DNA from: Streptomyces sp. NRRL WC-3605 | GTDB lineage: Bacteria > Actinomycetota > Actinomycetes > Streptomycetales > Streptomycetaceae | Assembly: GCF_001509795.1 (NCBI RefSeq) | Contig: NZ_LLZN01000070.1 | Coordinates: forward strand, 1-59,277 | Length of the DNA: 59,277 bases | Direction: 5' to 3' | Shown here: positions 11,187 through 51,503 of the stretch, one piece after another | Numbering within the stretch: the stretch's first letter is position 1 | Layout: each line of letters begins with the position of its first letter | Notes under the pieces: model-generated | The model's input: the letters and a program-made list of their open reading frames with translations, nothing else | What the model was told of the DNA's origin: nothing | The model's database searches: none | Made by a program: the position numbers and the translations under genes

Positions 11187-11260
11187 CGGGGTGTAGCGCA
11201 GCTTGGCAGCGCGCTTCGTTCGGGACGAAGAGGTCGTGGGTTCAAATCCCGCCACCCCGA
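11187..11260 (+). tRNA. tRNA-Pro (anticodon CGG)
   Basis: A 74-nt cloverleaf: acceptor CGGGGTG pairs with CACCCCG, the anticodon stem CTTCG/CGAAG encloses loop TTCGGGA giving anticodon CGG, and the T arm contains GTTCAAATC. No CCA is encoded. The gene's 3' part from 11217 is the attachment core for the adjacent integrated elements, so its 3' end was rebuilt by the incoming element. Confidence 0.95.
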
Positions 11261-11262
11261 CA
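11217..11262. repeat. attL: attachment core inside tRNA-Pro
   Basis: A 46-bp direct repeat covering the anticodon arm to the 3' end of tRNA-Pro. It is identical to 22970-23015. The version 11219-11274 is also identical over 56 bp to 51419-51474. It marks the left end of a tandem array of tRNA-integrated elements. Confidence 0.93.
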
Positions 11263-11268
11263 CAGGTC

Positions 11269-11305
11269 AGAGGCCACCTACCAACTTTGGTAGGTGGCCT
11301 CTTTC
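11269..11305 (+). terminator. Element-borne hairpin just after attL
   Basis: A 15-bp perfect stem (11269-11283 with 11288-11302, loop ACTT) followed by TTC lies 9 nt after the tRNA. It probably terminates tRNA-Pro transcription and may also end the convergent int transcript. Confidence 0.75.
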
Positions 11306-11312
11306 GTGGTCG

Positions 11313-11333
11313 GGGGGCCAAACAGGGGGCCAA
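11313..11333. repeat. Candidate integrase arm-type site, left copy
   Basis: A 21-bp sequence made of two tandem GGGGGCCAA-type units. It is identical to 22847-22867 at the other end of the element. It lies about 50 bp inside attL, so both copies would flank the core in the circular form, as arm-binding sites do in tyrosine-recombinase systems. Confidence 0.5.
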
Positions 11334-11343
11334 CGGATTCCGA

Positions 11344-12525
11344 TCAAGCCTCGCGCTCGGTCGTCTCCCGTGGCCGCGCAAAGATCACGTCCATAGCCTC
11401 TGCACCGGATGTGATGACCGGACGGAGCTGCTTCCGGTAGACGGCCTCTGTCGTCGCCTGGCTGGTGTGCCCGACGAGCTGGGCGATTCGCTCCAGCGGG
11501 ATGCCATGGTCGGAGAGCAGTGAGACGAAGCTGTGCCGGAGCTCCCGCGGCGTCCACTCTGGAGCGAGCCCCGCCTTCTTCACGATGGCCTTGAAGTCAC
11601 GGCGGACGTTGGCCGCGTCAAGTGGCTCACCACTCCGGGTCGTGAAGACGCGGCCGGTCGGGCTCCAGTCCATCCCTCTCGATACCCGCTCCTGCTTCTG
11701 CCATCGCTTGTGCTCTTCAAGGACTTCGACCACCTGCCTCGGGAGGGCGATGGTGCGACGGCTCTTCCTGGTCTTTGTCTCTCCGTGTTTACGCACCGAG
11801 CGCCATACAGCGACGTGAGGCGGGACACCCTCTGTGGTCTCCAGGAAGACGTGGTCCCACGTGAGAGGACGCGCCTCTTCCGTACGTACGCCGCTGAGGA
11901 GTGAGAGCACAAGGTAGGCGTACAGCCGTGACGGACGGGCGGCAGTAAGCACGGCTTTGGCCTGCTCCAGGTTGAGGGCCTTGCTCGGGCGTCCGGGGCG
12001 CCCCTCCGGCGCGGTGACGAGCAGGGCAACGTTCCGCGCGGCCTTATCCCTGCGCTGAGCGTGCTCGATGGAACGGCGCAGGATGGCGAGGAGGTCGCGC
12101 AGGCTGCGCGTTGCCAGGAATTCGGCCCTGCCCTCCAACCAGTCGTCGACATCATCCGCACTGAGGTCCTTCAGCTTGGCTTTGCCGATGAACGGGAGAA
12201 GGTGCTTGTTCGCCATCGCACGGTTCTTGCCGATGGTGCCCTTCTCGTCGCGTCCCTTGAGCCCGCGCTCCAGCCAGTCGCTCACCGCATCGGCCACGGT
12301 GTAATTGGCCGGCGTCTTGACGCCGGACTGGACTTCCTTTTTCAGGTCCCGGATCTTCTGGCGAACCTCGGTCTTGGTCTTGCCGTACACCTTCGGCCGA
12401 CGGCGTTTTCCGTTCGGGGCGTACCCCATGGACACGGCGCCCACGTAGCGATTCTTCGCCGCGTCCCAATAGATCGTGTCCTCACCGTGGCCAGCCCTAC
12501 GGGCAGGCTTCGGGGTCTCGGTCAT
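11344..12525 (-). CDS. int: Tyrosine-recombinase integrase
   Basis: A 393-residue site-specific recombinase that integrates and excises the element at tRNA-Pro. It has an arm-binding/AP2-like N-terminus (1-60), a SAM-like core-binding domain (about 70-170) and a catalytic domain with R214 (S-G-V-R-T-E-E), R330 in R-E-L-R-H-S, H353 (V-G-H-T-S) and nucleophile Y363 (A-V-Y-R-K-Q). The first position of the HxxR box is Arg327 rather than His. It ends 81 bp from attL, the usual place. Excisionase lies immediately upstream. Confidence 0.95.
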   Translation of the reverse strand: MTETPKPARRAGHGEDTIYWDAAKNRYVGAVSMGYAPNGKRRRPKVYGKTKTEVRQKIRDLKKEVQSGVKTPANYTVADAVSDWLERGLKGRDEKGTIGKNRAMANKHLLPFIGKAKLKDLSADDVDDWLEGRAEFLATRSLRDLLAILRRSIEHAQRRDKAARNVALLVTAPEGRPGRPSKALNLEQAKAVLTAARPSRLYAYLVLSLLSGVRTEEARPLTWDHVFLETTEGVPPHVAVWRSVRKHGETKTRKSRRTIALPRQVVEVLEEHKRWQKQERVSRGMDWSPTGRVFTTRSGEPLDAANVRRDFKAIVKKAGLAPEWTPRELRHSFVSLLSDHGIPLERIAQLVGHTSQATTEAVYRKQLRPVITSGAEAMDVIFARPRETTEREA

Positions 12526-12544
12526 GTGGTGTTCTCCAAACGAG

Positions 12545-12570
12545 CGGGCCGCGCCAGATGGCGCGGCCCG
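12545..12570 (-). terminator. Hairpin between xis and int
   Basis: An 11-bp perfect GC stem (12545-12555 with 12560-12570, loop AGAT) in the 67-bp gap between xis and int. It may attenuate read-through from xis into int or only be a partial terminator. Confidence 0.5.
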
Positions 12571-12592
12571 GGGTGCGAACGGACAGGGAAAG

Positions 12593-12805
12593 TCAGGCGG
12601 CGGCTTGTGCCTCGCTCTTGAGCAGTTCGACGTACTGTGCGATGTACTCAGGCGGGATAAGCCGCCGACGGCCGATGCGAACCGTCTGGAGACGCCCGAG
12701 GCGGATCTCCTCGTAGACCAGCGAGCGACCGATACCCAAGGCCGTCGCTGCTTCTTCCGGTCGGTACAGAACCCGCTCAGCGGGAGAGGTAAGCGTGATG
12801 CTCAT
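12593..12805 (-). CDS. xis: Excisionase, MerR-type helix-turn-helix (70 aa)
   Basis: A small DNA-binding protein. Residues 13-60 form a MerR-like winged helix (Y-R-P-E-E-A-A-T-A-L-G-I-G-R-S-L-V-Y, then G-R-L-Q-T-V-R-I-G-R-R-R-L-I-P), the standard AICE/phage excisionase fold. It directs the integrase to excise. Located directly upstream of int on the same strand, separated by 67 bp containing a hairpin. Confidence 0.88.
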   Translation of the reverse strand: MSITLTSPAERVLYRPEEAATALGIGRSLVYEEIRLGRLQTVRIGRRRLIPPEYIAQYVELLKSEAQAAA

Positions 12806-12842
12806 CCGGGGTGCTCCTCGGCTGGTCTCTTGGGCCCTTCTG

Positions 12843-13032
12843 GGAAGTCCGCTACATCCGCTACGCCGCTACATCGCAGGTCAGCGGGGGTGTTTTTGTA
12901 GCGGAGGGGTGGCGTGTAGCGGCTACGCGTGCGCTGCGTCGTTGCGGGCGTAGCCGCTACACGCTTCGGTGCCGCTACAGATTTAGGGCTTCTGAGCTGG
13001 GCTGTAGCGGTGTAGCGGATGTAGCGGAGTCC
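12843..13032. repeat. Iteron-like cluster with central inverted repeat (candidate replication origin)
   Basis: Ten copies of the heptamer GTAGCGG (or its complement CCGCTAC) occur at 12849, 12858, 12866, 12898, 12916, 12954, 12972, 13004, 13012 and 13021. A perfect 16-bp inverted repeat (12913-12928 with 12948-12963, 19-nt spacer) sits in the middle. It overlaps the end of the DUF3631 gene and fills the gap before xis. Clustered iterons beside replication genes suggest an origin. Confidence 0.6.
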
Positions 13033-14138
13033 TGGGGAGGGGGTGGGCAGTAGCGGGCCCACGCGTCCGCCAGGTCCTCGGCGTGGAAGCCTTTGAGGAC
13101 TCCGCCGGCGGTGCGGATGTTGCGGGATCGGACGGGGGTGTTGTCGGCGGTCATGTACTCCCCGAGCATCCGGGCAAGGCGCCGGTTGTCGAGGGGCTTG
13201 CCGTCGAGGTCGGCCCACGGGGCGTCGTCGAGGGCGTTGAGCCGGTCGAGGATGGCGATGGTGGGCAGCTTGTCCACGCCGATGAGGACGTGGTCGCGCA
13301 GGTCGGTCAGGAGCCGGATGCCGAGGCTGTGTTTGTCGGTGGTCTGCGCGGCCTTGACGAGCGTCACGCATGCTTCGCGGGCCCGTTCGGGCCACTGTCC
13401 GCCGACGGCGTCCGCGATGGCCAGCAATGGCTCCCATACGTCCGCAGGTCGGTCGGTGACGCCGTCGGGCATCTCGGGCCAGGCTCCGAGCACGAACCCG
13501 CGTGCGTGCGCGGCCCATTCGGCGAGCCGGTCACGGAGCTTGTGGCCTTCGGCTTCGTGGATGCGGGCGCGGAAGGGTTCCACGCGTTCGTTGCGTGCTC
13601 GCCGGCGCATGCGGATGACGATGGAGCGGGTCAGGATCGTGTCGGGCAGGGAGCCGAGTCCGGCGACGGCGACCGCGCAGTACGAGGGGAAGGCTTGCAC
13701 GGTCTGGTTGCCGCCGTCGCCGATGCACCGGTAGGTGACGCCGGTGCGGCGGTGTCCGGCGTTGAGGAAGCCGCGCAGGTCCTCGTTGTCCCCGGCCTTG
13801 GGGCCGAAGATGGTGTCGATCTCGTCGAACAGGATGGTGGGCCGTCCGTCGGCTCCGGACACGGCGCGGAAGAGGGCGGCGGCGGACGCGTTGACCGCGA
13901 CCATCGGGTGCGGCACGAGGGTTTCCACGATCTCCAGTGCCCGTGACTTGCCCGACCCCGGTTCGGGGGACAGGAAGGCCAGGCGTGGGGTGGAGTCGAA
14001 GCAGTCGAGCAGGTGGGCGTGAGCGTCCCAGAGGGCGACGGCGACGTATGCGGCGTCGGTGGGGAAGACGTTGAAGCGGCGGTGGAAGGCTTCCACCTCG
14101 TCGAGCAGCGCGGCGCCGTCGATGGACTTCGGGGTCAT
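12975..14138 (-). CDS. DUF3631 domain P-loop ATPase (387 aa)
   Basis: An ATPase with Walker A P-E-P-G-S-G-K-S-R at about residues 56-64 and Walker B T-I-L-F-D-E-I-D at about 100. The DUF3631 domain fills the C-terminal half. Such proteins accompany primase-polymerases in actinobacterial mobile elements and phages and probably act as helicase-like replication ATPases. The start codon overlaps the stop of the preceding gene by 4 bp (ATGA). The last 15 codons run into the iteron cluster, giving a repetitive S-A-T-S-A-T tail. Confidence 0.88.
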   Translation of the reverse strand: MTPKSIDGAALLDEVEAFHRRFNVFPTDAAYVAVALWDAHAHLLDCFDSTPRLAFLSPEPGSGKSRALEIVETLVPHPMVAVNASAAALFRAVSGADGRPTILFDEIDTIFGPKAGDNEDLRGFLNAGHRRTGVTYRCIGDGGNQTVQAFPSYCAVAVAGLGSLPDTILTRSIVIRMRRRARNERVEPFRARIHEAEGHKLRDRLAEWAAHARGFVLGAWPEMPDGVTDRPADVWEPLLAIADAVGGQWPERAREACVTLVKAAQTTDKHSLGIRLLTDLRDHVLIGVDKLPTIAILDRLNALDDAPWADLDGKPLDNRRLARMLGEYMTADNTPVRSRNIRTAGGVLKGFHAEDLADAWARYCPPPPQDSATSATPLQPSSEALNL

Positions 14139-14566
14139 GCGGCGGTCCTCCTTTCCTGGGTGGTCGTGGGAGCTCCCGTGCAGCCGGACGTGTGCCCCTC
14201 GTACTCGGAGATCAGCGCGGCCACGGGGCGGGGCCCGGTGGCGGTGCCGGTCTGCCCGCAGGTGCAGGCGTAGGCGGCGGTGGGGGTGTCGCCGTGCCGT
14301 TTGGACCAGCGGGCGCCGTCGTAGTGGTGGCGGTAGACCGGTGGGGCGTAGATGCGGATGCCGGGCCGCTCGGGCGTCGGGTCTTCCGCGTCGTGGCGTG
14401 CCTCGTTGCTTCGGAACCGCTCAGAACGAAGAGCAGTGACGACGCCCTGACGGGCGGCGCCTTTCGGCTCGCCCACGGCCGCCGTGTCCACAGCCTGTGC
14501 AGCGGCGTGCGGGCCGGTGGGGGTGTTAGTGGGGCAATCCAGGGCGGGGGGAGTCGGGGCCGTCAT
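14135..14566 (-). CDS. Hypothetical replication-module protein (143 aa)
   Basis: I do not recognise a named family. The gene is coupled by 4-bp overlaps to both the upstream primase-polymerase and the downstream DUF3631 ATPase, so it is surely expressed with them. The C-terminal part has Y-A-P-P-V-Y-R-H-H-Y-D-G-A-R-W, then C-T-C-G and E-G-H-T-S-G-C, which could bind zinc. The N-terminal third is low-complexity. A role as a small replication accessory factor is inferred from position only. Confidence 0.75.
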   Translation of the reverse strand: MTAPTPPALDCPTNTPTGPHAAAQAVDTAAVGEPKGAARQGVVTALRSERFRSNEARHDAEDPTPERPGIRIYAPPVYRHHYDGARWSKRHGDTPTAAYACTCGQTGTATGPRPVAALISEYEGHTSGCTGAPTTTQERRTAA

Positions 14567-15498
14567 GCCACCTCCCGTGGGGTGGCGTGGGCGATGACCC
14601 AGTCCAGTGCGCTGCGGATGGTGGTGCGGCACTCGGCCGGCGGCAGGCCCGTAGCCTCCCCCGCCCCCTGGATTGCCTCCTCCACCACGTGCCGGGGGAT
14701 GTCGCCCCACGCCACGAACCGTGCCACCTTGCAGGCGCTGCGGTGAAGGGTGACGTTGCGGCCGTGCGGCCCACCCTCGGACGCGGAGGCGATGACGGCG
14801 CACTCGCGCTCCAGCGCCACGCGTGCCGCGCGGGTGCCGTCGTGGGCTCGTACGGGCAATTGAACGGGCCTGTCCGGCTCGGTGAGCAAGGCAGTAAGCC
14901 AGGCGGGCAGTTCGGCTACGGGCGCGTCGTGGGCGACCTCGTACGTGCCGTCGGGTGTGGTGCTGCCGGGGGCGACGACGTAGCCGCCCCACGCGCGGGT
15001 GTCGATGTGCGGTCCGAGCCGGTTCGCACTGTTCTTCAGCCGGATGCCGGACGGGGCGGTGAAGTACAGGTGCTCCCCACCGCGCGCGGTCCGCACCCGG
15101 TAGGTCCCCGGGACAGTCTGTCCGGTGCGCTCGCAGAGCGCCGCAAAGGAAGTTGCGCCGTCAGGCGCTCCTTTCGGCTCTTCGAGCTTGCACACGTCCA
15201 GGTCGATGACGAGCAGTCCGGCCGGGCCGGTGGCGATCCCAACGTTGTACGGGCGGGACGCCCATGCTGCATGGATGAGCGCGGGGTCGGTGGTTGCGCG
15301 CTGCTCGGGCTTACGGTGCCCGCCCGTGCAGCGGCCGGTGCGGGGGCAGGCGCGTTCGGGGTGCCCGGCGGGGCGTTTGCTGCCGGGGTGGAGCGGGATG
15401 ACGGGCCAGCCGCGTTCGGCCGCCGCGAGGGCGGAGGCGAGCAGGTCCGGCGCTAACGGCCGGTGGCCGTCTCGCCGGATGTCGGTCGGTTGGGTCAT
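14563..15498 (-). CDS. Bifunctional DNA primase/polymerase (311 aa)
   Basis: An archaeo-eukaryotic-type prim-pol. The N-terminal domain has G-W-P-V-I-P-L-H-P-G-S-K-R-P and a cysteine/histidine-containing loop (C-P-R-T-G-R-C-T-G-G-H). The catalytic acidic motif is V-I-D-L-D at about residues 97-101. R-T-A-R-G-G-E-H-L-Y-F and G-G-Y-V-V-A-P-G-S complete the active site. It is expected to prime and copy the element's DNA and defines this AICE as the prim-pol (RepPP) type rather than RepSA. Confidence 0.92.
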   Translation of the reverse strand: MTQPTDIRRDGHRPLAPDLLASALAAAERGWPVIPLHPGSKRPAGHPERACPRTGRCTGGHRKPEQRATTDPALIHAAWASRPYNVGIATGPAGLLVIDLDVCKLEEPKGAPDGATSFAALCERTGQTVPGTYRVRTARGGEHLYFTAPSGIRLKNSANRLGPHIDTRAWGGYVVAPGSTTPDGTYEVAHDAPVAELPAWLTALLTEPDRPVQLPVRAHDGTRAARVALERECAVIASASEGGPHGRNVTLHRSACKVARFVAWGDIPRHVVEEAIQGAGEATGLPPAECRTTIRSALDWVIAHATPREVA

Positions 15499-15538
15499 GC
15501 TGGGAGACCTCCACAGGTCTGTTGACGGTCTGGTGGAA

Positions 15539-15579
15539 GGCGGCGGCCCCGGTTCATTGGCGTGAGGGGGGCCGCCGCC
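15539..15579 (-). terminator. Hairpin between tra and the replication genes
   Basis: A 12-bp perfect GC stem (15539-15550 with 15568-15579) in the 99-bp gap after the tra stop codon. It probably separates transfer from replication transcription. Confidence 0.6.
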
Positions 15580-15597
15580 GTCGTGTGTCGGGCAGGG

Positions 15598-17385
15598 TCA
15601 AGCGGCGGCGGAGTCGTCGCCGCGCGTGGCGGTCAGACGGCCATCCACGGTGCGGACGACCGTGCCGCCGATGGTGAGGGCTTTGACGGCCTTGGACACG
15701 GCGCTCTTGGATAGGCCCGTGATCGTGACAAGGTCCTTCTGCCGGACCGGTTCGTCGGCGGTCTCGATGGCCTTGAGGACGCGGGCAGCGGCGCCGTCCA
15801 CGGCCGGTGCCGCCTCGGATGAGGTGTCCTTGACGAGCGTGAGAGTGGGGGCGCCCGCGGCTTCCACCGTGGGCGCGATGGAGCGGGACCACGGCGTGCG
15901 GTCGGGCAGTGCGATGACCACGCTCTTGTCCATGTAGCGGACCTTGACGGGGTCGGGCTTGCGCTTGCCGTCCCGCACCAGCGCGACACCGGGCACGGGG
16001 AGTTCGTCGGCGTTCCAGCCCTTGGCCTGTGCGTCCTCCCCGAGGACGACGCGGGCTTCGGCCGGCGTGCGCACGGCGAGGCAGATGGAGACGCCGATCT
16101 GTGGGGCGATCTGCTTGGGGATGCCGTCGCCGATGGTGGGCTTCTGGGTCATCCACCACAGGTCGATGCACGCCGCGCGGCCCATGCGTGCGAGGGATTC
16201 CAGGCCCGGCAGGGCGGAGCGGTTGACGGTGCGGGTCTTGCCGTCGGCGGTCTCGGTCTCGTAGGGGACCTTGTCGGCGGCGGTCATGACTTCCGCGCCC
16301 TCGTCGACGACGACCGTGATGCGGGGCCGGTCAGGGGTGGGGGTCCAGGTGTCCTGGCCCTTGGGCAGGACGGAGAGCCGTTCCAGCATCTCCGTCTCCA
16401 GCTCGTCCACCACGTCCACGACTTCGCGCGGGGTGGAGGCGACGCGGGCCCGGTGGTCCCACAGCCGTCCTTCCACCCGCTTGAGGTCGATGATGACGAG
16501 CGCGTTCGTCGGACCTTCGGACGCGTCGTACAGCAGGGGCCGGGACGCGACCGACTTACCGGCGCCGGAGCGCCCGGCGATGAGCAGCCGTTCCCCGAGC
16601 GGCACGGTGACCTGCTCGCCGGTGACGGTGTCGATGCCGAGGGAGCGCCGTTCGGGCGTCCAGGTCAGGTCGTCGCCGTCGGCCGCGCTGCGGGTGCGCA
16701 AGGTGATTTCAGCCCAGCCGCCTTGCTTGCCTGCCTTGATCTGCATGCGCAGGCTCGTGCGGGCGCCGAGCAGGTTGCGGATGTGGTCCTCGGCGGCGCG
16801 GAGCTTGGTCGCGGTCCACGTGCCGTCGAGCCGGACGGCGCACACGATCCCGGCCTCGGTCAGCTTCGGCCGGCCGGTCAGCGTGCCTGCGAGGCCGCGC
16901 TGTTCGGCGTGGTCCTTCCAGTGCTGCGGCTGAAGACGCTTGAGCAACGCGGTCTCTTCGGCGGTGGGCTTGAGTCCGCTGGTGTCGCGCTCGCGCACGG
17001 CGATCCACACCGACAGTGCGGTGACCGCTGCGACGACGGCCACGGCCGACCACACCCATGCGCGGGTGGAGACCTGCGGCAGCCACACGTATCCGGCGGC
17101 ACCGAGCGCGGTGGCGGTCTTGGTGGCGAACAGCCACATGGGGTCGGGCACGCGCCGCTTGGCGGTGCGCAACTCCCGTTCGGCGCGGTGGCGCAGGGGC
17201 GTGACGCCTTCGGGGTCGATGGCGCGTGCGGTGGCCAGAGCGCGGCGGGCGTCGCGCACGAGCGGCTTGCGTTCGGCGCGCAGGGCGCGGCGGCGTTCGG
17301 CTTCCTTGCGCCAGTGGTCGGCGGTCCAGCGGGCGGCGGTGGCGGCGTACTGGTGGTGGGTGCGCCAGACTTGTCCGTGACTCAC
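15598..17385 (-). CDS. FtsK/SpoIIIE-type conjugal DNA translocase (TraSA-like, 595 aa)
   Basis: Drives transfer of double-stranded element DNA between mycelia. Two membrane segments lie at about residues 85-130. Walker A G-R-S-G-A-G-K-S is at 271-278 (K277), and Walker B R-I-T-V-V-V-D-E is at about 375-382. The C-terminal 60 residues form a winged helix like FtsK gamma, probably binding clt-type repeats. The GTG at 17385 (V-S-H-G-Q-V-W) was chosen because the upstream extension covers a strong hairpin. Single-protein conjugation by such Tra proteins is established for Streptomyces plasmids and pSAM2. Confidence 0.93.
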   Translation of the reverse strand: MSHGQVWRTHHQYAATAARWTADHWRKEAERRRALRAERKPLVRDARRALATARAIDPEGVTPLRHRAERELRTAKRRVPDPMWLFATKTATALGAAGYVWLPQVSTRAWVWSAVAVVAAVTALSVWIAVRERDTSGLKPTAEETALLKRLQPQHWKDHAEQRGLAGTLTGRPKLTEAGIVCAVRLDGTWTATKLRAAEDHIRNLLGARTSLRMQIKAGKQGGWAEITLRTRSAADGDDLTWTPERRSLGIDTVTGEQVTVPLGERLLIAGRSGAGKSVASRPLLYDASEGPTNALVIIDLKRVEGRLWDHRARVASTPREVVDVVDELETEMLERLSVLPKGQDTWTPTPDRPRITVVVDEGAEVMTAADKVPYETETADGKTRTVNRSALPGLESLARMGRAACIDLWWMTQKPTIGDGIPKQIAPQIGVSICLAVRTPAEARVVLGEDAQAKGWNADELPVPGVALVRDGKRKPDPVKVRYMDKSVVIALPDRTPWSRSIAPTVEAAGAPTLTLVKDTSSEAAPAVDGAAARVLKAIETADEPVRQKDLVTITGLSKSAVSKAVKALTIGGTVVRTVDGRLTATRGDDSAAA

Positions 17386-17415
17386 GTGTCCTCTTCTCAG
17401 GGTTCGGTGGGTTGG

Positions 17416-17446
17416 TGGTGACGGGCCCTGCGACGGCCCGTCACCA
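17416..17446 (-). promoter_or_regulatory. Strong hairpin in the tra leader
   Basis: A perfect 12-bp inverted repeat (17416-17427 with 17435-17446, 7-nt loop) lies 31 bp upstream of the tra start. It could be a terminator of the upstream spd genes, an attenuator or an operator. Confidence 0.5.
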
Positions 17447-17648
17447 CACGCGTGTGTTACGCGGAGTGAGCAGGTTTCCGGTTTCCTGGTTTCCGAGAGG
17501 GTCCCTACGCGTGCGCGCGCGAGGACGGAAACTTCCGTCACCCTGCGTCGCTACGGGGCCTCAGGCGGCCGAACAGGCTTCCGGGGGTCAAACCCCACCA
17601 GGAAGGGGCCTCAGACGCCCTGCGGGGCGCCTACGGCCTCGGGGCGGT

Positions 17649-18014
17649 TCAGCGGGCCTTCCGGCCGCGCCTGCCGGTTCTCTTGGTGCTGTCGCCGACG
17701 GCGCGGACCACGGTGACGACGGCCCAGCCGAGCACGAGCGCGATGAACGCGAGCATCGCGAGGTTCGCGGCGATGGCGGTCAGCGCACCGACGAGCAGCG
17801 GGCCGAAGTAGACGCCGGCCGCTACCGCCCCGGCACCGACACCGGAGCCGAGCGCGACGCGCTGCACCGTGCGGTCCGGCAGCGCCTGATGGATGTGCAC
17901 CACCTGCGGCCCAGACGGCTGCTGCGCGGACAGGTGAGTGGGGTCGGCGTAGACGTGGTGGCCGTCGGGGAGCTGAACGACGGTCATCGGGCGGTGTGCG
18001 GGGAGCTGTTCCAT
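17649..18014 (-). CDS. SpdB-like membrane protein (121 aa)
   Basis: A small protein with two closely spaced transmembrane helices in its second half (V-A-L-G-S-G-V-G-A-G-A-V-A-A-G-V, then L-A-M-L-A-F-I-A-L-V-L-G-W) and a basic C-terminus. Spd proteins mediate spreading of conjugative elements through the recipient mycelium. ATG at 18014. It overlaps the preceding zinc-ribbon gene by 31 bp, indicating one operon. Family assignment rests on topology and context. Confidence 0.72.
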   Translation of the reverse strand: MEQLPAHRPMTVVQLPDGHHVYADPTHLSAQQPSGPQVVHIHQALPDRTVQRVALGSGVGAGAVAAGVYFGPLLVGALTAIAANLAMLAFIALVLGWAVVTVVRAVGDSTKRTGRRGRKAR

Positions 18015-19505: not shown

Positions 19506-19544
19506 GGGTCGTGTTCTCCCTAGTAGGCGGCAACGGCCCGAACA

Positions 19545-19924: not shown

Positions 19925-19958
19925 TGTGCTTCACTTGAGTCGTCGAAAGGAGTTCCGC

Positions 19959-23015: not shown

Positions 23016-23025
23016 GCCGAAACAG

Positions 23026-41879: not shown

Positions 41880-41889
41880 GGTGGCCGCC

Positions 41890-44470: not shown

Positions 44471-44484
44471 CGAACCGAGGCGTC

Positions 44485-44690
44485 ATGCCCCTCTCACAGC
44501 CCACCGCCCACTGCACCACCGTGGCTTTCTGCGACTGCAGCGGGCGGATCCTCGACCTCGCCGGCCGCGGGTTCCAGCTCCTCGGCCCTCCGTTCGGCCA
44601 CCTGCCGCCTCCCCTCGGCGACACCCCGGCCGCGCCCCTTCCGGCCCCGCCGCACTGGTCTGTCCCACTTGCGCCTGTTCTTCCAGGAGG
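44485..44690 (+). pseudogene. Degenerate STAS-domain remnant
   Basis: The ATG context AACCGAGGCGTCATG is identical to that of the STAS gene at 42280. Reading on gives T-V-A-F-C-D-C-S-G-R-I-L-D-L, then G-R-G-F-Q-L-L-G-P-P, the core and end of a STAS domain with the beginning and middle missing. Confidence 0.45.
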
Positions 44691-44696
44691 TGTGCG

Positions 44697-45368
44697 ATGA
44701 AGGCCGAACCAGAGCGGGGACACACACGGAAGCCAGGGGATGGCGAGCCCTCAGCCATGGCTCCGGTGCGGTTGCGTCGGCTGAGCCGTTGGCTGGTGGA
44801 GGACCTGCGTGAGGATCTGGCGGGGCTGTATGTGGAGTCCCGCGCAACGCCGCCGGGTGATCCGTACCGCCGTCCCAGCCGCCAGAACTTCCTGAACCGC
44901 CTCATCACGGACATACGCCGGCCTGAATTCGCCATGGTGATCGCCGAGACGGACGGCCTGATGGGATGCGCCTTCGGATTCCCGGTACGCCGCGACGGCT
45001 CATGGTGGCTCGGCTTCGAAGGAATACTGCCGCGCAGCGTCGGGCAACTCACCGTGACCGGCAGCGTCTTCGCGTTCGCCGACATCCTGATCCGGCCGCA
45101 CCCGCAGAGCCGGGAACTCGCCCATCGCGTGCAGGAGCGGCTGCTGACCGACCATCAGGCATCGCTCGGCGCCACTCTGGTGGACCGGGCCGATCGCCCG
45201 ACCCTCGCTGTGCTCCGCTCTTGGGGGTGGCTGGACATCGGAGAGCTGCGCAGGCCACTGGGCGCCGCCACGTTCCGCGCGCTGGTGTTTCCCCTCGGGG
45301 AACGCACCACGGCGAGGCTGGAGGGCCTTGTCGCGATGCCGGGAGACGGTGGCCCGGGTGGGGCCTGA
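44697..45368 (+). CDS. GNAT-like N-acetyltransferase (223 aa)
   Basis: ATG 44697 with AGGAGG 8 bp upstream. The fold shows F-A-M-V-I-A-E-T-D-G-L-M-G-C-A-F-G-F-P (beta 2-4), F-A-D-I-L-I-R-P-H-P-Q-S-R-E-L-A-H-R-V-Q-E (acetyl-CoA loop) and A-T-L-V-D-R-A-D. Substrate unknown. The end overlaps the start of the GAF-ANTAR gene. Confidence 0.75.
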   Translation: MKAEPERGHTRKPGDGEPSAMAPVRLRRLSRWLVEDLREDLAGLYVESRATPPGDPYRRPSRQNFLNRLITDIRRPEFAMVIAETDGLMGCAFGFPVRRDGSWWLGFEGILPRSVGQLTVTGSVFAFADILIRPHPQSRELAHRVQERLLTDHQASLGATLVDRADRPTLAVLRSWGWLDIGELRRPLGAATFRALVFPLGERTTARLEGLVAMPGDGGPGGA

Positions 45369-46119
45369 CAGGCGGTCGGCCCGCATTCGGATGCTGGTGG
45401 CCGAGCAGGCGGTCCGACGAGGTGCCCGGGTGAGTGTGGTGGACGTGTGCACCGCGGCCGTAGCCGCGCTGCCGGTCAGCGGGGCCGGGCTGTCGGCGAT
45501 GTCCCGAATCGCGGCGAGCCATCCGTTGTACAGCACCGACGACATCAGCGGGCAACTGGAAGAGCTCCAGCTCACGCTGGGTGAGGGGCCCTGCGTGGAC
45601 GCCTTTGTACGCGGCTCGGCCGTCCTCACACCCGATCTGCTCACCACCGAACTTCAGGATCACTGGGCCGTGTTCGCGGATGCGGCCCTGGAGGCCGGAG
45701 CCCGCGCGGTGTTCTCGCTGCCCCTGCAGAAGGGGGCGATCAGCCCGGGAGTTCTGGACCTGTACGCCAACATTCCGACCGTACTGGGCACGGAGGAACT
45801 GGCCGACGCACTGGCGTTCGCCGATCTCGCGACACTGCTCCTGCTCGATACCAGGATCGACGATGCGGGCGCGCGGGCCGTCGGGCCGATGCCGGACCGC
45901 AGCTTCGGGGACCTGGGCGCGTACCGGGCGGAGATCGACCAGGCCAGCCGGATGCTCACGGTTCAGCTCGGAGTCGGCATCGAAGAAGCCTTCGTCCGGC
46001 TCCGCGCCCACGCCTATGCGCAGGGGCGCCGGCTCGCCGACGTGGCCGCCGACGTGGTGGCCCGACGGCTTCGTTTCACCCCGGACGCGGAGCCGGATCA
46101 GGCCGCGGAGGAACCCTGA
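45349..46119 (+). CDS. GAF and ANTAR domain protein (256 aa)
   Basis: GAF sensor (about residues 30-165, including L-G-E-G-P-C-V-D-A-F) and C-terminal ANTAR RNA-binding helices (V-Q-L-G-V-G-I-E-E-A-F-V-R-L-R-A-H-A-Y-A-Q-G-R-R-L-A-D-V-A). ANTAR proteins act as RNA-binding antiterminators. The GTG at 45349 overlaps the preceding gene by about 20 bp; ATG 45391 is an alternative. Confidence 0.82.
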   Translation: MARVGPDRRSARIRMLVAEQAVRRGARVSVVDVCTAAVAALPVSGAGLSAMSRIAASHPLYSTDDISGQLEELQLTLGEGPCVDAFVRGSAVLTPDLLTTELQDHWAVFADAALEAGARAVFSLPLQKGAISPGVLDLYANIPTVLGTEELADALAFADLATLLLLDTRIDDAGARAVGPMPDRSFGDLGAYRAEIDQASRMLTVQLGVGIEEAFVRLRAHAYAQGRRLADVAADVVARRLRFTPDAEPDQAAEEP

Positions 46120-46189
46120 CGCGTTGGTCACGGCCAAGGAATGTGCCCTACTTCCCGTCCCCTCGGGCAGGGACTAGTCTCAATCGAGG

Positions 46190-46915
46190 GTGCCCACGAT
46201 GGATCAACAGCTTCTGGCCAAGACCTTCGTCGAGCTGGCCGACAATCTGGTCGCCGACTTCGACCTCATCGATTTTCTGCGCCTGCTGACCGACCGCTGC
46301 GTCGGCATGCTCGACGTGAGCGCCGCCGGGGTACTGCTCGCCGACCGGGACGGCAAACTCCGCGTCATGGCCGCCTCCGACGAACAAGTGCGCCTGCTGG
46401 AGCTCTTCCAGCTGCAGAACGACGAGGGCCCCTGCCTCGAGTGCTTCCGCACCGGCGCACCAGTGATCGTCTCCGACCTCGGCACGGTGACCGCCCGCTG
46501 GCCGCGCTTCGCGGTGGCGGCCCAGCGCAGCGGGTTCGGGGCGGTCCAGACCCTGCCGATGCGTTTGCGGGACGAGGTCGTCGGCGCCCTGAACCTCTTC
46601 CGCACGACCCCCGGACCCTTCGACCCGGCCGCCGCACCCGTCGCGCAGGCCCTGGCCGACGTCGCCACCATCAGCCTGCTGCAACAACGCACCGCTCAGC
46701 GCAGCACGGTGCTCAACGAACAACTGCAGACGGCGCTGAACAGCCGGGTACTGATCGAACAGGCCAAAGGGAAACTCGCCGAACGCCAGGGCATCGACAT
46801 GGAGCAGGCGTTCACCGCACTGCGCGGTTACGCCCGCTCCCACAACCGGCGCCTGGCCGATGTGTCCCGCGCCCTCATCGACGGCTCGGAACCCCTCACC
46901 GGTCTGGGGTCCTGA
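46190..46915 (+). CDS. GAF and ANTAR domain protein (241 aa)
   Basis: GAF domain (about 20-165, N-D-E-G-P-C-L-E-C-F, with P-M-R-L-R-D-E-V-V-G-A-L-N-L-F) and ANTAR domain (S-R-V-L-I-E-Q-A-K-G-K-L-A-E-R-Q-G-I-D-M-E-Q-A-F). GTG 46190 or ATG 46199. The family pattern is stronger here than in the upstream GAF-ANTAR gene. Possible targets are stress transcripts of the island. Confidence 0.87.
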   Translation: MPTMDQQLLAKTFVELADNLVADFDLIDFLRLLTDRCVGMLDVSAAGVLLADRDGKLRVMAASDEQVRLLELFQLQNDEGPCLECFRTGAPVIVSDLGTVTARWPRFAVAAQRSGFGAVQTLPMRLRDEVVGALNLFRTTPGPFDPAAAPVAQALADVATISLLQQRTAQRSTVLNEQLQTALNSRVLIEQAKGKLAERQGIDMEQAFTALRGYARSHNRRLADVSRALIDGSEPLTGLGS

Positions 46916-46967
46916 CCCACGCCCTTGCCGGGGCCCGCTCCGGCGCTGCCCGTGCCCCCGAGCATCG

Positions 46968-47727
46968 TCACCCTGCCCTCCTGCGATCGTGGGCCTCGGC
47001 CATCATCTGGTCGCGCAGGCGCGCACAGGTGCGGATGATCAGCCGGGAGACGTGCATCTGCGAGAGACCGAGCTGCAGGGCGATGCGGTCCTGCGTCATC
47101 TCGCATAAGAAGCGCATGTAGAGGATCTGCCGTTCGCGTTCTGGCAGGGCACTCAGCAGCGGGCGGAGGGCTTCACGGTTGACGATCACGTCGAAGCCGG
47201 GCTCGGTGCCACCGACCGTGTCGGTCAGTGGGTGGCTGTGCTCGGAGCGACCGGGTAAGGCGTCCAGGGACAGGGAGGTGAAGCTCCGCATCGCCTCTTG
47301 GCCCAGCCGCACCTCCGTCTCGGTGAGGCCGGTGTGCACGGCGATGTCGTGGACGGAGGGTTCGCGGCCGTAGAGCGAAGCGCACTCACGGCCGGCGGAG
47401 CGGACCTGGGTACTCAACTCCTGTACCCGTCGCGGTACGTGCACACCTCAGAGGTGGTCACGGAAGTGCGGTTTCACTTCGCCCAGGATCGTCGGTACGG
47501 CAAAGCTCGGGAAGGCGTTGCCAAGGCTCGGGTCGAAACGGGTCACCGCCTTGATCAGACGTCGGGCGACCTGCTCGAGGAGCCCAGGCGCACACCACTT
47601 CCTGCCTCAGGGCGGTCCTCTCCGGGCCGTCCGGCGGGGCGGCGATACGGCGGAACGCGGCATCGGTGTCCGGGGCGTCGTCATAGGGGTGTGCGCCTCG
47701 TGGCCTCTGGGTACGTGCATACGGCAT
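46968..47727 (-). pseudogene. SigB/SigF-type sigma factor, multiply broken
   Basis: From ATG 47727 the start M-P-Y-A-R-T-Q-R-P-R-G-A-H-P-Y is intact to V-V-C-A-W. A deletion and frame change follow, then L-I-K-A-V-T-R-F-D-P-S-L-G-N-A-F and H-F-R-D-H-L, then TGA at 47448-47450 where Trp is expected. From V-H-V-P-R-R-V-Q-E-L onward regions 3 and 4 are intact (E-R-Q-I-L-Y-M-R-F, Q-L-G-L-S-Q-M-H-V-S-R). Region 2, which melts the promoter, is damaged. Confidence 0.8.
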
Positions 47728-47915
47728 GGGCACGGGTCTCCTCATCGGTGGCGTCGCTCACCGTGGGAGCCGTCGGACCGCAGCGCACTGGGGAGCAGCC
47801 ACAACTGCTCCCACGGGCGGGCTGCACAGCACAGGCGTCCGACGGCCGTCCTGGACGAAGGCACCGGAGAGTTGAGTTCGCCGCTCCCGATGCCGTCCGC
47901 CGGCCCCGTGCGCCG

Positions 47916-48152
47916 TCAACTCGGGTCCGCTTCGTGGAGGCGCCTCAGTGCTCGGCGCAGCTCCCGCTGTATCGGTTCCGGGAGTGCCTCGTCCGTCGTC
48001 GTGGCGACCAGGGCGGCGGCCACGTCCCGGAGCTTGGTGTTGCAGCGCTGCGACACGTCCACCAGCACGTCCCAGGCCCTGTCGCTGGAACCCGCCGAAG
48101 GCACAGCCGTGAACAGCCGGTGTTCCTCACGGGGCGGGGTCACCTGGTGCAT
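47916..48152 (-). CDS. Small ANTAR-like protein (78 aa)
   Basis: A-W-D-V-L-V-D-V-S-Q-R-C-N-T-K-L-R-D-V-A-A-A-L-V-A matches the second and third ANTAR helices; the first is replaced by an unrelated N-terminus. It may be a stand-alone RNA-binding fragment or a truncated gene. Confidence 0.6.
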   Translation of the reverse strand: MHQVTPPREEHRLFTAVPSAGSSDRAWDVLVDVSQRCNTKLRDVAAALVATTTDEALPEPIQRELRRALRRLHEADPS

Positions 48153-48191
48153 GGCCGTACCTCACAGGGCAGTCATCCCGTCCACAAGTCG

Positions 48192-48548
48192 TCAGCGGCG
48201 CGCCAGTTGCCGTTCGCCGGCCGCACCAGGCTTGTAGGGCAGTCCGTAGTGCTTGAAGACCGCTTCCTCCTGCTCGGCAGGCAGCACGTCGTCGGTGCCG
48301 ATCGAAGGGGCCTGCTTCACCAGCGTTCTGACATAGCCGACCCTGAGATAGCCCGGCCCGACGATCGCGTCGTCGAGAGGGACGAAGACCAGACGGTGCC
48401 GGGTGGGCAGCCCGGTCCGTACCGTGGCCATGGCCGGCTCATCGGTGGTGGTGTCCACGTAGACCGCCTCCAGGACACCGATCTTGTGCGACTCGGTGTC
48501 GACGACATCGCGGTTGCGCCATTCTCGGACGTCGGCTGCGTGAATCAT
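48192..48548 (-). CDS. PRC-barrel domain protein (118 aa)
   Basis: M-I-H-A-A-D-V-R-E-W-R-N-R-D-V-V-D, K-I-G-V-L-E-A-V-Y-V-D and F-V-P-L-D-D-A-I-V-G-P-G-Y form a PRC barrel with a conserved C-terminus E-R-Q-L-A-R-R. Intact copy of the gene that is frameshifted at 50695. Function unknown; common in actinobacterial stress clusters. Confidence 0.82.
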   Translation of the reverse strand: MIHAADVREWRNRDVVDTESHKIGVLEAVYVDTTTDEPAMATVRTGLPTRHRLVFVPLDDAIVGPGYLRVGYVRTLVKQAPSIGTDDVLPAEQEEAVFKHYGLPYKPGAAGERQLARR

Positions 48549-48596
48549 GACCTCTCCCTACTCGGACGACCCGCCTCGCCGCGTACGCTGCATCCG

Positions 48597-48847
48597 CTAG
48601 GGGAGCGGCTTGCCCTCCCAGGCGGCGACCAGGTCCGCGGCCACCTCCGGAAGTTCGGCGTCGCACTGCCCAGCATGCCGCGGGCCAGGTCGATGACCGC
48701 ACGGCCGGCCGGCGCCTGCCGCAGCTGGCCGCTCTCTGCGCGCAGTGCGGCGACATCCCGTCCCACAGGTGCGTTCCCCCACGTGGCCTCGGCCCGCAGA
48801 TCCCACCACTCCTCTTGGATCCCACGTGTGCGCTGCACGGCATACAC
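48597..48847 (-). pseudogene. ANTAR-domain gene with internal deletion
   Basis: L-R-A-E-S-G-Q-L-R-Q-A-P-A-G-R-A-V-I-D-L-A-R-G-M-L is the first ANTAR helix. The end V-A-A-D-L-V-A-A-W-E-G-K-P-L-P-stop is in another frame directly after it. The middle helix is missing. Confidence 0.6.
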
Positions 48848-48922
48848 CTCTCAACGATCAGAACGCGTCCGGCCGGGCTGATGCCATCCCCGGAACCTCA
48901 GGCTCCCGGGCCACTCCACGGA

Positions 48923-49201
48923 TCACTTGCGGTTTTCGCGGTCCCGACGGTCCTCGCGCCGCCAGCGCGCCCGGTGCTGACGGCTGTAGCGGCGGTCCCA
49001 GCGGTCCTGACGATCCCGGTGCACCTGGTAGTCCCGATAGTTTCCGAGATCGGAACCGTCGCCACGGATCCAGCCTCCCCCGCGTTCGCGGCCGTTCCGG
49101 GTGGCGCCGAAGACCAACACGGCCGCAGCCACCCACCAGATGGGGCTGATGAAGCCGAGGCCGAACAAGACCACGATGAGGATGAGGAGCAGCACGAACA
49201 C
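48923..49201 (-). CDS. Small hydrophobic protein with charged tail (92 aa)
   Basis: Two membrane helices (M-F-V-L-L-L-I-L-I-V-V-L-F-G-L-G-F and W-W-V-A-A-A-V-L-V-F-G) followed by a tail of about 50 residues rich in Arg, Asp and Tyr. This layout recurs in Streptomyces proteins annotated only as hydrophobic protein. Function unknown. Confidence 0.65.
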   Translation of the reverse strand: MFVLLLILIVVLFGLGFISPIWWVAAAVLVFGATRNGRERGGGWIRGDGSDLGNYRDYQVHRDRQDRWDRRYSRQHRARWRREDRRDRENRK

Positions 49202-49701
49202 GGTGGGCCTCCCCGGGAGCGGGACACAGCATCGATACCGGGGACTGGGGCCTCAACCCACAGCGTAGTCCTGCCGAACGGTTGCGGATACCGTGCGACG
49301 TCAGCGCGTCCTGTGCGGCATGGATGACCGCTTGACACCTGTCGGGGAACTGCGGCGAGGGCTAGCATGCGTCATGCCGCCCCTGCCCCCGGCAGCGTCG
49401 CACCGCCAACGCCGTCCCCAGAGGGCCACCCTGCACATCGGCGCCGCAACCCGCCACGTCACGAGCGAGGCCGTTCCCGTACGCGCCCCTCGTCACGCGA
49501 TCCCGGTCGCACCCCGATGTGCCCCGGGCGGGCACCGATCTGCTGCCCGCCGTATCGCACGCGTCCCACACCAGGCGGTACACATGTACGCGCTGATCCT
49601 TCCCGCTTCAACTCCCTTCGTCCTGCTCGCCGGCTCCGAGCGGCAACCCCACGACGACGAACTCGCGGCCCGGGCGAGCTGACCGGTTGCAGGGCCGCAT
49701 C
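49202..49701. other. Intergenic stretch without convincing gene
   Basis: About 500 bp. Open frames exist on both strands but their translations are Pro/Arg-rich and unlike proteins. It may include remnants of lost genes. Confidence 0.4.
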
Positions 49702-50529
49702 TCAACTGCGCCGGTTCAGTACGTGGGCCAAGCGTGGGAGTTCCTCGTGCAGCAGTCGGCCTACCAGGGCACCGCCGAAGACGACGACACCCACGCCGAC
49801 CAGCCAGGACTGGATGACCAGGACGGTTCCGACCGGGCCGTAGCTGACAGCGTTGGATGCAATCAACGGCGAGAAGACGAGCCTGGAGAAAACCCTCAGG
49901 CCGAGCAGCCCGATCACGGTGGCCACGGCGCCGGGCAACAGGGCACGCCAGCGGACCCTCCCGCCGAGCAGCACGCGCTGGGACCACCACAGGAACAGCA
50001 CGGCGCTCAGCGAGGCCACGGCCCCGCCTGCCAGGGGTTCGCGGCGCAGCGTGGTGGTGGCGGAGACGAAAAGGTATCCGGTGAGGACACCCAGCCACAC
50101 CACATGCCGCCATCTGGCCCACCAGCCGGCCGGCGGCAGGTCCCAGACCTTCTCGTAGCCGGTCTGCACCGCCGCCCCGAAGGCCAGGCCGAACACGGCA
50201 AGGGCGGCGATACCGAACACGGTCGTCGTCCGCAGGGCCTGACCGGGCCGGATGAACAGCTGCTCGACCTGGCGTCTGGAGGCCCTCGACACACCAAGCC
50301 CCTCCCCCAGCCACTGCGCGAACCCCCGCCCGTGCTCGGGATCGGCGGAGGAGACGATGATCAGGAGTGGCACCAGCGTGAGCAGCCCCAGCGCGGCAAA
50401 GCCCAGCGAACGTGACCACAGCTCAATGTCCCTGCTCCGCCGCCATCCTCGTCCGACGGGCGAACGGCTGATCACGCGGCGCAGCCGCCCGAACCAAGAC
50501 AAACGGTCCGCGGCACCAGAAGGCTTCAT
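49702..50529 (-). CDS. YihY/BrkB-like membrane protein (275 aa)
   Basis: Six predicted helices. L-W-S-R-S-L-G-F-A-A-L-G-L-L-T-L-V-P-L, T-G-Y-E-K-V-W-D-L-P and S-Y-G-P-V-G-T-V-L-V match the YihY/BrkB family (function unsettled). ATG 50529 is chosen over the ATG 6 bp upstream. Intact; sits between the two PRC-barrel copies. Confidence 0.82.
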   Translation of the reverse strand: MKPSGAADRLSWFGRLRRVISRSPVGRGWRRSRDIELWSRSLGFAALGLLTLVPLLIIVSSADPEHGRGFAQWLGEGLGVSRASRRQVEQLFIRPGQALRTTTVFGIAALAVFGLAFGAAVQTGYEKVWDLPPAGWWARWRHVVWLGVLTGYLFVSATTTLRREPLAGGAVASLSAVLFLWWSQRVLLGGRVRWRALLPGAVATVIGLLGLRVFSRLVFSPLIASNAVSYGPVGTVLVIQSWLVGVGVVVFGGALVGRLLHEELPRLAHVLNRRS

Positions 50530-50694
50530 CGGCATGCCTGTCGACTACCACGGTCGATACCGTCAGCGCGCGAGGGCGCGACGCAGACGTTCACGGATAA
50601 CCTGGAAGAACAGAGGCCCACCGGGCTCAGCGGGCGGCGACTTCCGCAAGGGGCAGCTCGCACCGGCCATGATCAACGGCCCAGGAGGCAGGCC

Positions 50695-51050
50695 ATGATC
50701 CATGCAGCCGACATCCGCGAGTGGCGCAACCGCAGCGTCGTCGACCCCAAGGGCCACAAGATCGGCGTACTCGAAGCGGTCTACGTCGACACCACCAACG
50801 ACGAACCGGCCATGGCCACGGTCCGCCCCGGGCTCCCCACCCGCCACCACCTGGCTTTCGTACCCCTGGACGAGGCGATCTCGGGCCCGGCTACGTCAAG
50901 GTCTCCTACACCAAGACGCTGGTGAAGAAGTCGCCCTCGGTCGGCATGGACGACATCCTGCCCGCCGAGTCGGAGGAAGCGATCTTCCAGCACTACGACA
51001 TGCCCTACCAGACGGGCACAGGCGGCGAGCGGCAACTCGCGCGCCGCTGA
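50695..51050 (+). pseudogene. PRC-barrel domain gene, frameshifted
   Basis: M-I-H-A-A-D-I-R-E-W-R-N-R to P-L-D-E-A-I in one frame, then G-P-G-Y-V-K-V-S-Y-T-K-T-L to E-R-Q-L-A-R-R in the next. One C is missing near 50887 (GGGCCCGG for GGGCCCCGG). Otherwise very similar to the intact copy at 48192. Confidence 0.8.
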
Positions 51051-51088
51051 TCACCCGCGCTCAGCCACCCGAAGGAGGCGTACGCGTC

Positions 51089-51259
51089 ATGGCCCTCTTC
51101 CTCTTTCTCGTTCTGGTCGCCGTCGTGCTGGGAATCATCGGAGTGGCAGCAGATGGGTTGGGCTACTTGTTGATCATCGGCATCGTGGTCCTTGTGGCCG
51201 CGCTGGGCCTCATCGCCGTCCGCTGGTCCCAGCGCACGGGTCACCGCCCCCTCCGATAA
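51089..51259 (+). CDS. Small two-helix membrane protein (56 aa)
   Basis: ATG 51089 with GAAGGAGG upstream. Two helices linked by V-A-A-D-G-L-G-Y-L, tail R-W-S-Q-R-T-G-H-R. Paralogue of 25013-25183. Last gene before the right att site. Confidence 0.68.
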   Translation: MALFLFLVLVAVVLGIIGVAADGLGYLLIIGIVVLVAALGLIAVRWSQRTGHRPLR

Positions 51260-51418
51260 CGAACGACACGTTGTACTCCCTCGAAGCCCAGTCATTGGGA
51301 GCCGACGGGAGCCGTCCCGCTCCCCGGGCCCTTCCGACACCACCCGAGCCCTACCGATCCCAATGCCCTGACCTGCGGAAATGCCAAACAGGCAGGTGCC
51401 GATCCCGCCCGAACCTCA

Positions 51419-51462
51419 TTCGGGACGAAGAGGTCGTGGGTTCAAATCCCGCCACCCCGACA
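51419..51462. repeat. attR: right attachment core
   Basis: 44-bp copy of the tRNA-Pro 3' part. Identity with attL continues to 51474, giving 56 bp. It ends the tandem array; chromosomal sequence follows. Confidence 0.92.
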
Positions 51463-51467
51463 CAGGT

Positions 51468-51503
51468 CAGAGGCTCATTCGCGTGATCGCGGGTGGGCCT
51501 CTG
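51468..51503 (+). terminator. Candidate original tRNA-Pro terminator
   Basis: CAGAGGC/GCCTCTG inverted repeat around a 22-nt loop with an inner CGCG pair. It lies at the same distance from the att core as the hairpins brought by the two elements. Confidence 0.45.

Follow-up and report, generated by a model that had tools for sequence, protein, structure and literature searches.

Contig C70 of the draft genome of Streptomyces sp. NRRL WC-3605 carries three copies of the 3' part of a proline tRNA gene, tRNA-Pro(CGG), which raises the question of how many integrated elements these copies delimit and whether the 40 kb between the outer two could move as one unit. Based on comparison with related loci, we hold it probable that the region is an accretion array of at least four layers in one tRNA-Pro(CGG) attachment site. 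The tRNA-proximal layer would be an apparently complete actinomycete integrative and conjugative element (AICE) of 11.75 kb, named A-type after its integrase, IntA. The second would be a B-type AICE of which the left arm, a RepSA scrap and probably a scrap of the integrase are left, the third a stress-gene island closing in a D-type right end, and the fourth an A-like left-arm remnant behind copy 3. Layers 2 and 3 would be fused into one 28-kb segment with mismatched ends. Different tyrosine integrases would share the 44-bp core, each element bringing its own arms, usually with a hairpin directly behind the tRNA. The accretion at a single tRNA-Pro site that the original prediction described from the sequence was upheld, but its count of just two elements was not.

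Three core copies at one tRNA-Pro gene

The contig was analyzed over its whole length of 59,277 bases (the window); the draft genome consists of 136 contigs. ARAGORN called a single tRNA in the window, and its 3' part recurs twice, in direct orientation, giving the following attachment (att) sites:

11187–11261, + strand: tRNA-Pro(CGG), target gene (attB), called by ARAGORN
11217–11262, + strand: att core copy 1, left junction of element 1 (sequence comparison)
22970–23015, + strand: att core copy 2 (sequence comparison)
51417–51462, + strand: att core copy 3 (sequence comparison)

The copies start at the anticodon loop and finish at the tRNA 3' end, and they were real at the positions originally proposed. 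Copies 1 and 2 are identical (46/46), copy 3 differs from them by a single base change (45/46), and 44 bp, at 51419–51462 in copy 3, are exact in all three; chance falls far short of explaining exact repeats of 44 bp. The identity between copies 1 and 3 extends further, with 11219–11274 equal to 51419–51474 at 56/56 positions; over the following 20 bases, 5 agree. A scan of both strands of the window, allowing up to 14 mismatches in 46, returned these three places and no fourth core. The same three places ranked top in a search of the whole genome, where the fourth match was 87% over 75 bases on another contig.

Because the window is the whole of contig C70, the right side of the array is cut by the assembly; its right border was not found inside the window. 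Window genes at 56.4–58.1 kb also occur in genome G141, about 5.5 kb past its outermost fetched core, and in the studied genome contig C53 holds the block that relatives conserve downstream of the tRNA. An attempt to join C70 to C53 was without success. A stretch of 99 bp (58450–58548) is identical, reversed, to the end of C53, and may be either an assembly-graph repeat or a small inverted repeat.

Sequences behind the core track the integrase family

The junctions were typed by comparison with 72 fetched relative loci, some of which have no core. These had been selected because their tRNA flank was similar, because an integrase was hit or because they were named records for the upstream gene, and form a non-random sample. 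After four duplicate core places were dropped, 83 distinct post-core arms remained, the window's three included. An arm was labelled when an integrase of at least 60% identity lay within 2.2 kb, which gave 15 A arms (window copy 1 included), 15 B arms and 4 D arms; a further 17 had an arm site only (11 D, 3 A, 3 B). IntA and IntB are 50% identical, and IntD has no significant similarity to IntA. In a leave-one-out comparison, the most similar labelled arm belonged to the same integrase type for 33 of the 33 labelled arms outside the window. Judged by this comparison, the 60 nt behind the core track the integrase family in related Streptomyces. In the window, the arm of copy 1 was nearest to IntA arms, that of copy 2 to IntB arms (locus L117 first), and that of copy 3 to locus L106 and then to four IntA arms.

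Right ends were distinguished by the sequences ahead of the core. Those of A-type have the exact GGGGCCAAAC unit once or twice, about 100–125 bp ahead of the core, and terminate in ATCGCG. In D-type right ends, TGGGAGCC units stand 113 and 124 bp ahead of the core and the terminus is CCGAACCTCA or a close variant; B-type right ends terminate in GTTGC or ATTGC. We typed 21 core-to-core segments from the fetched loci and the window, ten of which have a recognizable arm site on both sides. The two ends agree in eight of these ten (L030, L032, L046, L069, L070, L082, L083 and element 1) and disagree in two (L045 and L116). The other 11 were untypable on at least one side; window segment 2 is among them because its B-type arm has lost its site.

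A hairpin stem of at least 10 bp lies within 80 nt of the core in 74 of the 83 distinct arms, versus 0 of 83 shuffled arms and 2 of 87 random places. Copy 3 is one of the nine arms lacking such a stem, its own being eroded. Incoming elements would thus usually place a hairpin of their own behind the tRNA, and transcripts of both the tRNA and int may end there; a terminator scan that requires at least five T in eight did not list this hairpin.

An apparently complete AICE next to the tRNA

Element 1 (11217–23015, 11.75 kb) lies between the identical cores 1 and 2 and contains the following features:

11263–11343, + strand: A-type left arm, with the hairpin directly behind the tRNA and arm repeats from 11312 (GGGGGGCCAAAC and a degenerate second unit)
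11344–12525, − strand: IntA, intact tyrosine integrase, 393 aa (PF00589, E 2.7e-22)
12593–12805, − strand: Xis-like excisionase, 70 aa (TIGR01764, 37.6 bits, cut-off 28.8)
12975–14138, − strand: RepAM-type (DUF3631) replication protein (PF12307, E 9e-63)
14563–15498, − strand: Prim-Pol protein (PF09250, E 4.7e-48)
15598–17541, − strand: FtsK/TraB-like transfer protein (PF01580, E 1.3e-5) with a C-terminal winged-helix match (MarR_2, E 1.7e-7)
18355–19548, − strand: DUF2637 protein (PF10935)
19926–20762, + strand: GntR/UTRA regulator, KorSA-like by family (PF00392, PF07702)
21910–22674, − strand: DUF3800 protein, element 1 cargo (PF12686)
22846–22969, + strand: A-type right end, with two GGGGCCAAAC arm repeats (22848, 22860) and terminal ..GATCGCG

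The Pfam scan placed a DUF218 protein among these genes as well, and the DUF2637 protein is one that we take to be Spd-like. Articles are cited here by PMC number; AICEs have been detected by an integrase, a Rep (RepSA, RepAM) or Prim-Pol protein and an FtsK-like Tra protein, DUF3631 being RepAM (PMC3218068). Element 1 has an integrase with an excisionase scoring above its cut-off, a replication module of DUF3631 and Prim-Pol proteins, and direct repeats in the tRNA 3' end (46/46). Its FtsK/SpoIIIE-type transfer protein is matched weakly (PF01580 at 25.2 bits, cut-off 24; no NCBIfam match). As originally suggested for this interval, the element looks like a complete AICE.

The GGGGCCAAAC motif occurs three times in the window (11314, 22848 and 22860), versus 0.25 occurrences expected from 20 Markov shuffles. 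It also flanks A elements in relatives and is a putative arm-type binding site of IntA. All occurrences in the window surround element 1, with none near copy 3 or right of copy 2, which makes the 11.75-kb AICE the best candidate to excise.

A 28-kb middle segment with mismatched ends

The left side of copy 2 is an A end, as expected for element 1, and by the arm code its right side would be a B-type arm whose integrase is lost. From here to copy 3 the segment comprises:

23016–23076, + strand: B-type left arm, cut at about 23076 ahead of its arm site (97% to L117 over 107 bp)
23078–23164, − strand: probable IntB gene scrap, 29 codons (66% identity over 29 aa, 39.3 bits)
23137–23770, − strand: RepSA replication gene scrap, C-terminal part (PF20199, E 3.5e-46, profile positions 266–406 of 438; 85% to L106)
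25004–30299, unstranded: stress cargo block 1, with DUF6286, Asp23 and fatty-acid desaturase (91% to genome G098)
30300–39711, unstranded: insert, with a transposase scrap, HTTM, DUF5819, an ice-binding protein with 27-bp repeats, and part of a desaturase
39712–51269, unstranded: stress cargo block 2, with DUF5994, SpoIIE, two GAF-ANTAR proteins, part of a sigma factor, PRC and BrkB
51296–51416, + strand: D-type right end, with TGGGAGCC, an eroded second unit and terminal ..CCGAACCTCA

Similarity over the core and B arm alone ends at or before 23076 in 41 of 42 matches in relatives, pointing to a deletion end there. The score of the IntB scrap is equalled by one chance-looking match of the same query elsewhere; its position and an 89% match of 44 bp in the IntB gene of L082 speak for the scrap. 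IntB and IntD gave only weak or partial matches elsewhere in the studied genome besides IntA itself. The B type may be the pSAM2 family, with pSAM2 presumably using tRNA-Pro; a RepSA scrap and a B-type arm are present in layer 2, which would then be a candidate pSAM2-type element. For the link between pSAM2 and tRNA-Pro, the available text of the open literature, PMC12924846 and PMC4068962 included, held nothing usable. At L106 (10971–13890), an A-like left arm adjoins another integrase (491 aa, with 27% identity to IntB), and a long RepSA frame of that locus (468 codons) contains the closest match found to the RepSA scrap of the window.

The segment 22970–51462 has att cores on both sides (44/44), as a cis-mobilizable element (CIME) would. 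No integrase of its own was found by tblastn with IntA, IntB and IntD beyond the probable 29-codon scrap, unrelated integrases being covered by Pfam on the scanned open reading frames only. The presumed arm site GGGGCCAAAC is absent from it. At its right end, one TGGGAGCC unit is intact (51296) and the other is eroded. By its end types, the 28-kb middle is a chimera, B-type on the left and D-type on the right. Its description as a decayed interval with cargo was borne out, with B-type scraps followed by a stress-gene island.

The cargo blocks (25.0–30.3 and about 39.7–51.27 kb) recur in G009, G103, G098 and G089 as pieces of 81–95% identity that are largely collinear, block 1 being present in G098 alone among these four genomes. 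G098 is without window positions 30300–40575, which hold the transposase scrap, HTTM, DUF5819 and the ice-binding protein. In G009, G103 and G089 the cargo shares a contig with tRNA-Pro at a distance of 0.5 to 2.8 Mb, and in G098 the two are on different contigs. In G089 the cargo ends at CCGAACCTCA and an eroded core (39/44). The simplest reading of these comparisons is that the cargo was once part of a D-type island. Carriage of the cargo by the tRNA-Arg AICE of G009 was considered and rejected, since the repeat ending that element precedes the cargo.

Copy 3 as a probable left junction

To the right of copy 3, the window contains:

51463–51503, + strand: A-like left-arm remnant, with an eroded hairpin, no A arm repeat and no integrase
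51551–52156, − strand: DnaN-like gene fragment (PF02767, PF02768)
52372–53213, − strand: VapBC toxin-antitoxin pair (85–87% DNA identity in L041 and L045)

The outer copies had been taken as attL and attR, and the 56 bp that they share as a sign that the active integrase could also excise the whole 40 kb. The identity is exact, but after comparison with the flanks of relatives copy 3 as the attR of such a unit is no longer the best reading. A D-type right end stands before copy 3 and an A-like left arm after it, so two left arms of similar sequence account better for the match. We favor copy 3 as a left junction itself, and infer that it did not arise as the attR of a 40-kb unit.

The native flank of the tRNA gene can be proposed from relatives. 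L034, a locus from a one-core genome and with no nearby integrase, has GTGAAGTACCAGGTCAGGGGCC behind the tRNA, a GTGAAGTACCAGG-type flank. In 16 other multi-core loci, what follows the last fetched core is a flank of broadly this kind (CCAGGTCAGG or CCAGCTCAGG type) in nine, a B-like arm in two and neither in one; the remaining four are considered below. Copy 3 of the window likely does not face the native flank.

Excision and order of arrival

The copies, the arm types, the places of the arm repeats, the gene content and the end mismatch can all be read directly from the sequence. Lambda-type tyrosine integrases use accessory proteins and arm sites on the att sites for excision (PMC4111918), and the Int and Xis proteins of pSAM2 work on attL and attR (PMC9033027). 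IntA and Xis would be expected to excise element 1 (copies 1 x 2) far better than anything larger: the pair 2 x 3 would have no integrase of its own, and the pair 1 x 3 would be missing the A-type repeats at copy 3. The 40-kb stretch probably does not look like one movable unit.

The tRNA-proximal element had been proposed as the last to arrive. Insertion of a second element at either core gives the same order, so that the order of arrival is unreadable from topology, and reading it from the map alone was rejected as impossible. Arrival of element 1 as the last is plausible from the gradient of decay. That the only intact element is the tRNA-proximal one, and that vectors of the island PAISt integrated only at the copy adjoining the target gene (PMC4057263), both fit with this order and do not prove it.

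Occurrence in Streptomyces

Core copies were counted in 199 genomes, the studied genome included, allowing 3 mismatches. The core was present in 196 of these, in at least two copies in 84 and in at least three copies in 16, the studied genome being one of the latter; a few extra copies lie on other contigs or at a distance and may fall outside the array. IntA relatives (E ≤1e-80) were found in 33 of the 199, studied genome included, and in nine other genomes IntA copies are 85–95% identical near full length, two of them with one in-frame stop, and sit 87–1562 bp from the same core.

Junctions were searched in a second sample, of 392 genomes (E ≤1e-25). At 17 places in 16 genomes, a match to the A-type right end reaches into the core or crosses it. 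The junction of A end, core and B arm seen at copy 2 recurs in G009 and G316, and in G009 an IntA element, a core and an IntB element stand in tandem. A D end with the core alone was found at 49 places in 46 genomes, and the core with an A-like arm alone at 23 places in 22 genomes. A D side running through the core into an A-like arm, as at copy 3, occurs at seven places in seven genomes, four with most of the D end and three with its inner part. At least two elements of one specificity between repeated cores, the mark of tandem accretion, are present in the window.

These comparisons suggest a broader picture, which we put forward tentatively as a possible but doubtful one. tRNA-Pro(CGG) may be a shared docking port on whose 44-bp core at least three tyrosine integrase families, and probably a fourth (that of L106), have converged, each with its own arm repeats and hairpins. 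If cores are interchangeable, elements of different families would stack at tRNA-Pro and be recut into chimeras, such as the window segment (B left, D right) and those of L045 and L116 (B left, A right).

Alternative explanations

If copies 1 and 3 were the attL and attR of a 40-kb composite, IntA could excise and move the whole by cis-mobilization. The identical 44-bp cores, the 56-bp identity and the intact IntA and Xis would all suit such a composite; for PAISt, excision was detected between all three att pairs (PMC4057263), and cis-mobilization of tandems of an AICE and a defective AICE has been proposed (PMC9513070). Copy 3 is without an A-type arm repeat, however, and its D-type left and A-like right sides account otherwise for the 56-bp identity, and we regard the composite as unlikely. 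Another way to read copy 3 is as the true outer attR, with the A-like sequence behind it being the standing tRNA flank of the lineage. A-like arms adjoin the tRNA with no IntA nearby in L040, L102 and L106, and the A-like arms behind the last fetched core in four of the 16 multi-core loci suggest that such flanks persist without an A element. The flank of L034 and the commonest last-core flank are of another type, however, and IntA or an IntA fragment lies within 2.2 kb of 15 arms, window included; a standing flank seems rather improbable on this balance.

The internal copies could also be assembly joins of separate islands in a draft of 136 contigs, where the 99 bp shared with the end of C53 show that repeats may break contigs. 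But the core repeats, at 44–56 bp, are shorter than this 99-bp overlap, and both junctions recur in other genomes, that of A end and B arm in G009 and G316 and that of D side and A-like arm at seven places, which makes such joins very unlikely. Duplication of the tRNA gene with no integrase involved is scarcely credible: although the outer copies are partial tRNA genes, they span the anticodon loop to the 3' end, as integrase cores do, and family-specific arms flank them.

Several observations weigh against the layered array that we prefer. The arm code was tested on labelled arms only, and 32 of the 83 arms have neither an integrase label nor an arm site; some labelled arms stem from close relatives. 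The integrase of L106, the locus nearest to the copy 3 arm, is of another type, so copy 3 may derive from an L106-like or an IntA kind of element. The four multi-core loci with A-like arms behind the last core count here too, and the proposed native flank is weakened by genomes whose single core carries an A-type (L040), a B-type or B-like (L044, L048) or another (L043) arm. The GTGAAGTACCAGG-type flank of the outer core of L030 carries D repeats, so D arms may account for part of such flanks. The cargo of G009 and G103 ends with no D end behind it in the stretch shown. Finally, a single integrase recombines all three att pairs of PAISt (PMC4057263), a precedent by which the absent repeats may not block the outer reaction, and 1 x 3 excision may still occur.

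Relation to known systems

AICE accretion with different integrases, and the idea that a defective neighbor is cis-mobilized, have already been published for Streptomyces (PMC9513070, PMC3218068), and the region is a new, well-resolved tRNA-Pro example of such accretion. In a Streptomyces population, between one and three intact or defective AICEs from different families likewise occupy one tRNA-Arg site together with a remnant, with integrases of 39–88% identity and proposed cis-mobilization (PMC9513070); here, by contrast, the target is tRNA-Pro(CGG), arm sequences type each junction, and the two ends of the middle segment do not match. Tandem AICEs in one tRNA gene were likewise described for Sav3708/Sav3728 and Fean5518/Fean5534, in one case with different integrase subfamilies, and Fean6303 has three att repeats in one element (PMC3218068); neither an arm-repeat analysis nor a stress cargo island was found in the available text of that article. 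PAISt of Streptomyces turgidiscabies is likewise an island with three att sites, one integrase and modular excision; its target is bacA with an 8-bp palindrome, and three excisions were detected there by PCR (polymerase chain reaction), whereas the present array is in a tRNA gene and is known from sequence alone (PMC4057263).

In the available part of the open literature we found no arm code, no set of several integrase families on one tRNA-Pro core genus-wide and no chimeric segments, and among the papers listed for Streptomyces tRNA-proline arrays no title or opening of an abstract covered them. The accretion of ICESt1 and CIMEs in Streptococcus thermophilus, which PMC3218068 and PMC4057263 cite, reportedly also pairs an integrative and conjugative element with a partner that has lost its own integrase but shares the att core; conjugation there is said to use a type IV system, instead of the FtsK-like transfer protein found here. 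Array copies may be sorted at the sequence level, the 60 nt behind the core labelling the integrase family and the arm repeats suggesting recombining pairs. Whether the whole island could move is thereby turned into a definite expectation, of excision for 1 x 2 and of poor excision for 1 x 3, and the stress-gene island is an example of cargo stranded between cores that a later element might pick up.

Further observations

IntD is a tyrosine integrase with a LacI-type helix-turn-helix between the central domain and the C-terminal catalytic part; PF00356 was matched in all eight IntD proteins scanned (E about 1e-13 to 2e-15). Among the papers listed in a search of the open literature, no title or abstract start reported a LacI-type domain inside integrases, and a structure prediction was unusable (mean predicted local distance difference test score, pLDDT, 35). 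Examples are:

L039, 2406–3953, − strand: IntD
L029, 17212–18831, + strand: IntD
L031, L036, L038, L094, L100 and L104: further IntD

In the stress cargo, an inverted repeat of about 360 bp (48192–48553 and 50690–51050) is 80% identical, and parts of it recur in other genomes. In the protein of the insert at 36330–37694 (− strand), the ice-binding domain is followed by some 15 units of TTGDDAAAV (nine residues, 27 bp) and a GKPGKP tail. The VapBC pair also lies within the tRNA-Pro arrays of G141 and G195, and in L045, where the two cores on either side of it are 1.14 kb apart, it resembles a small cassette.

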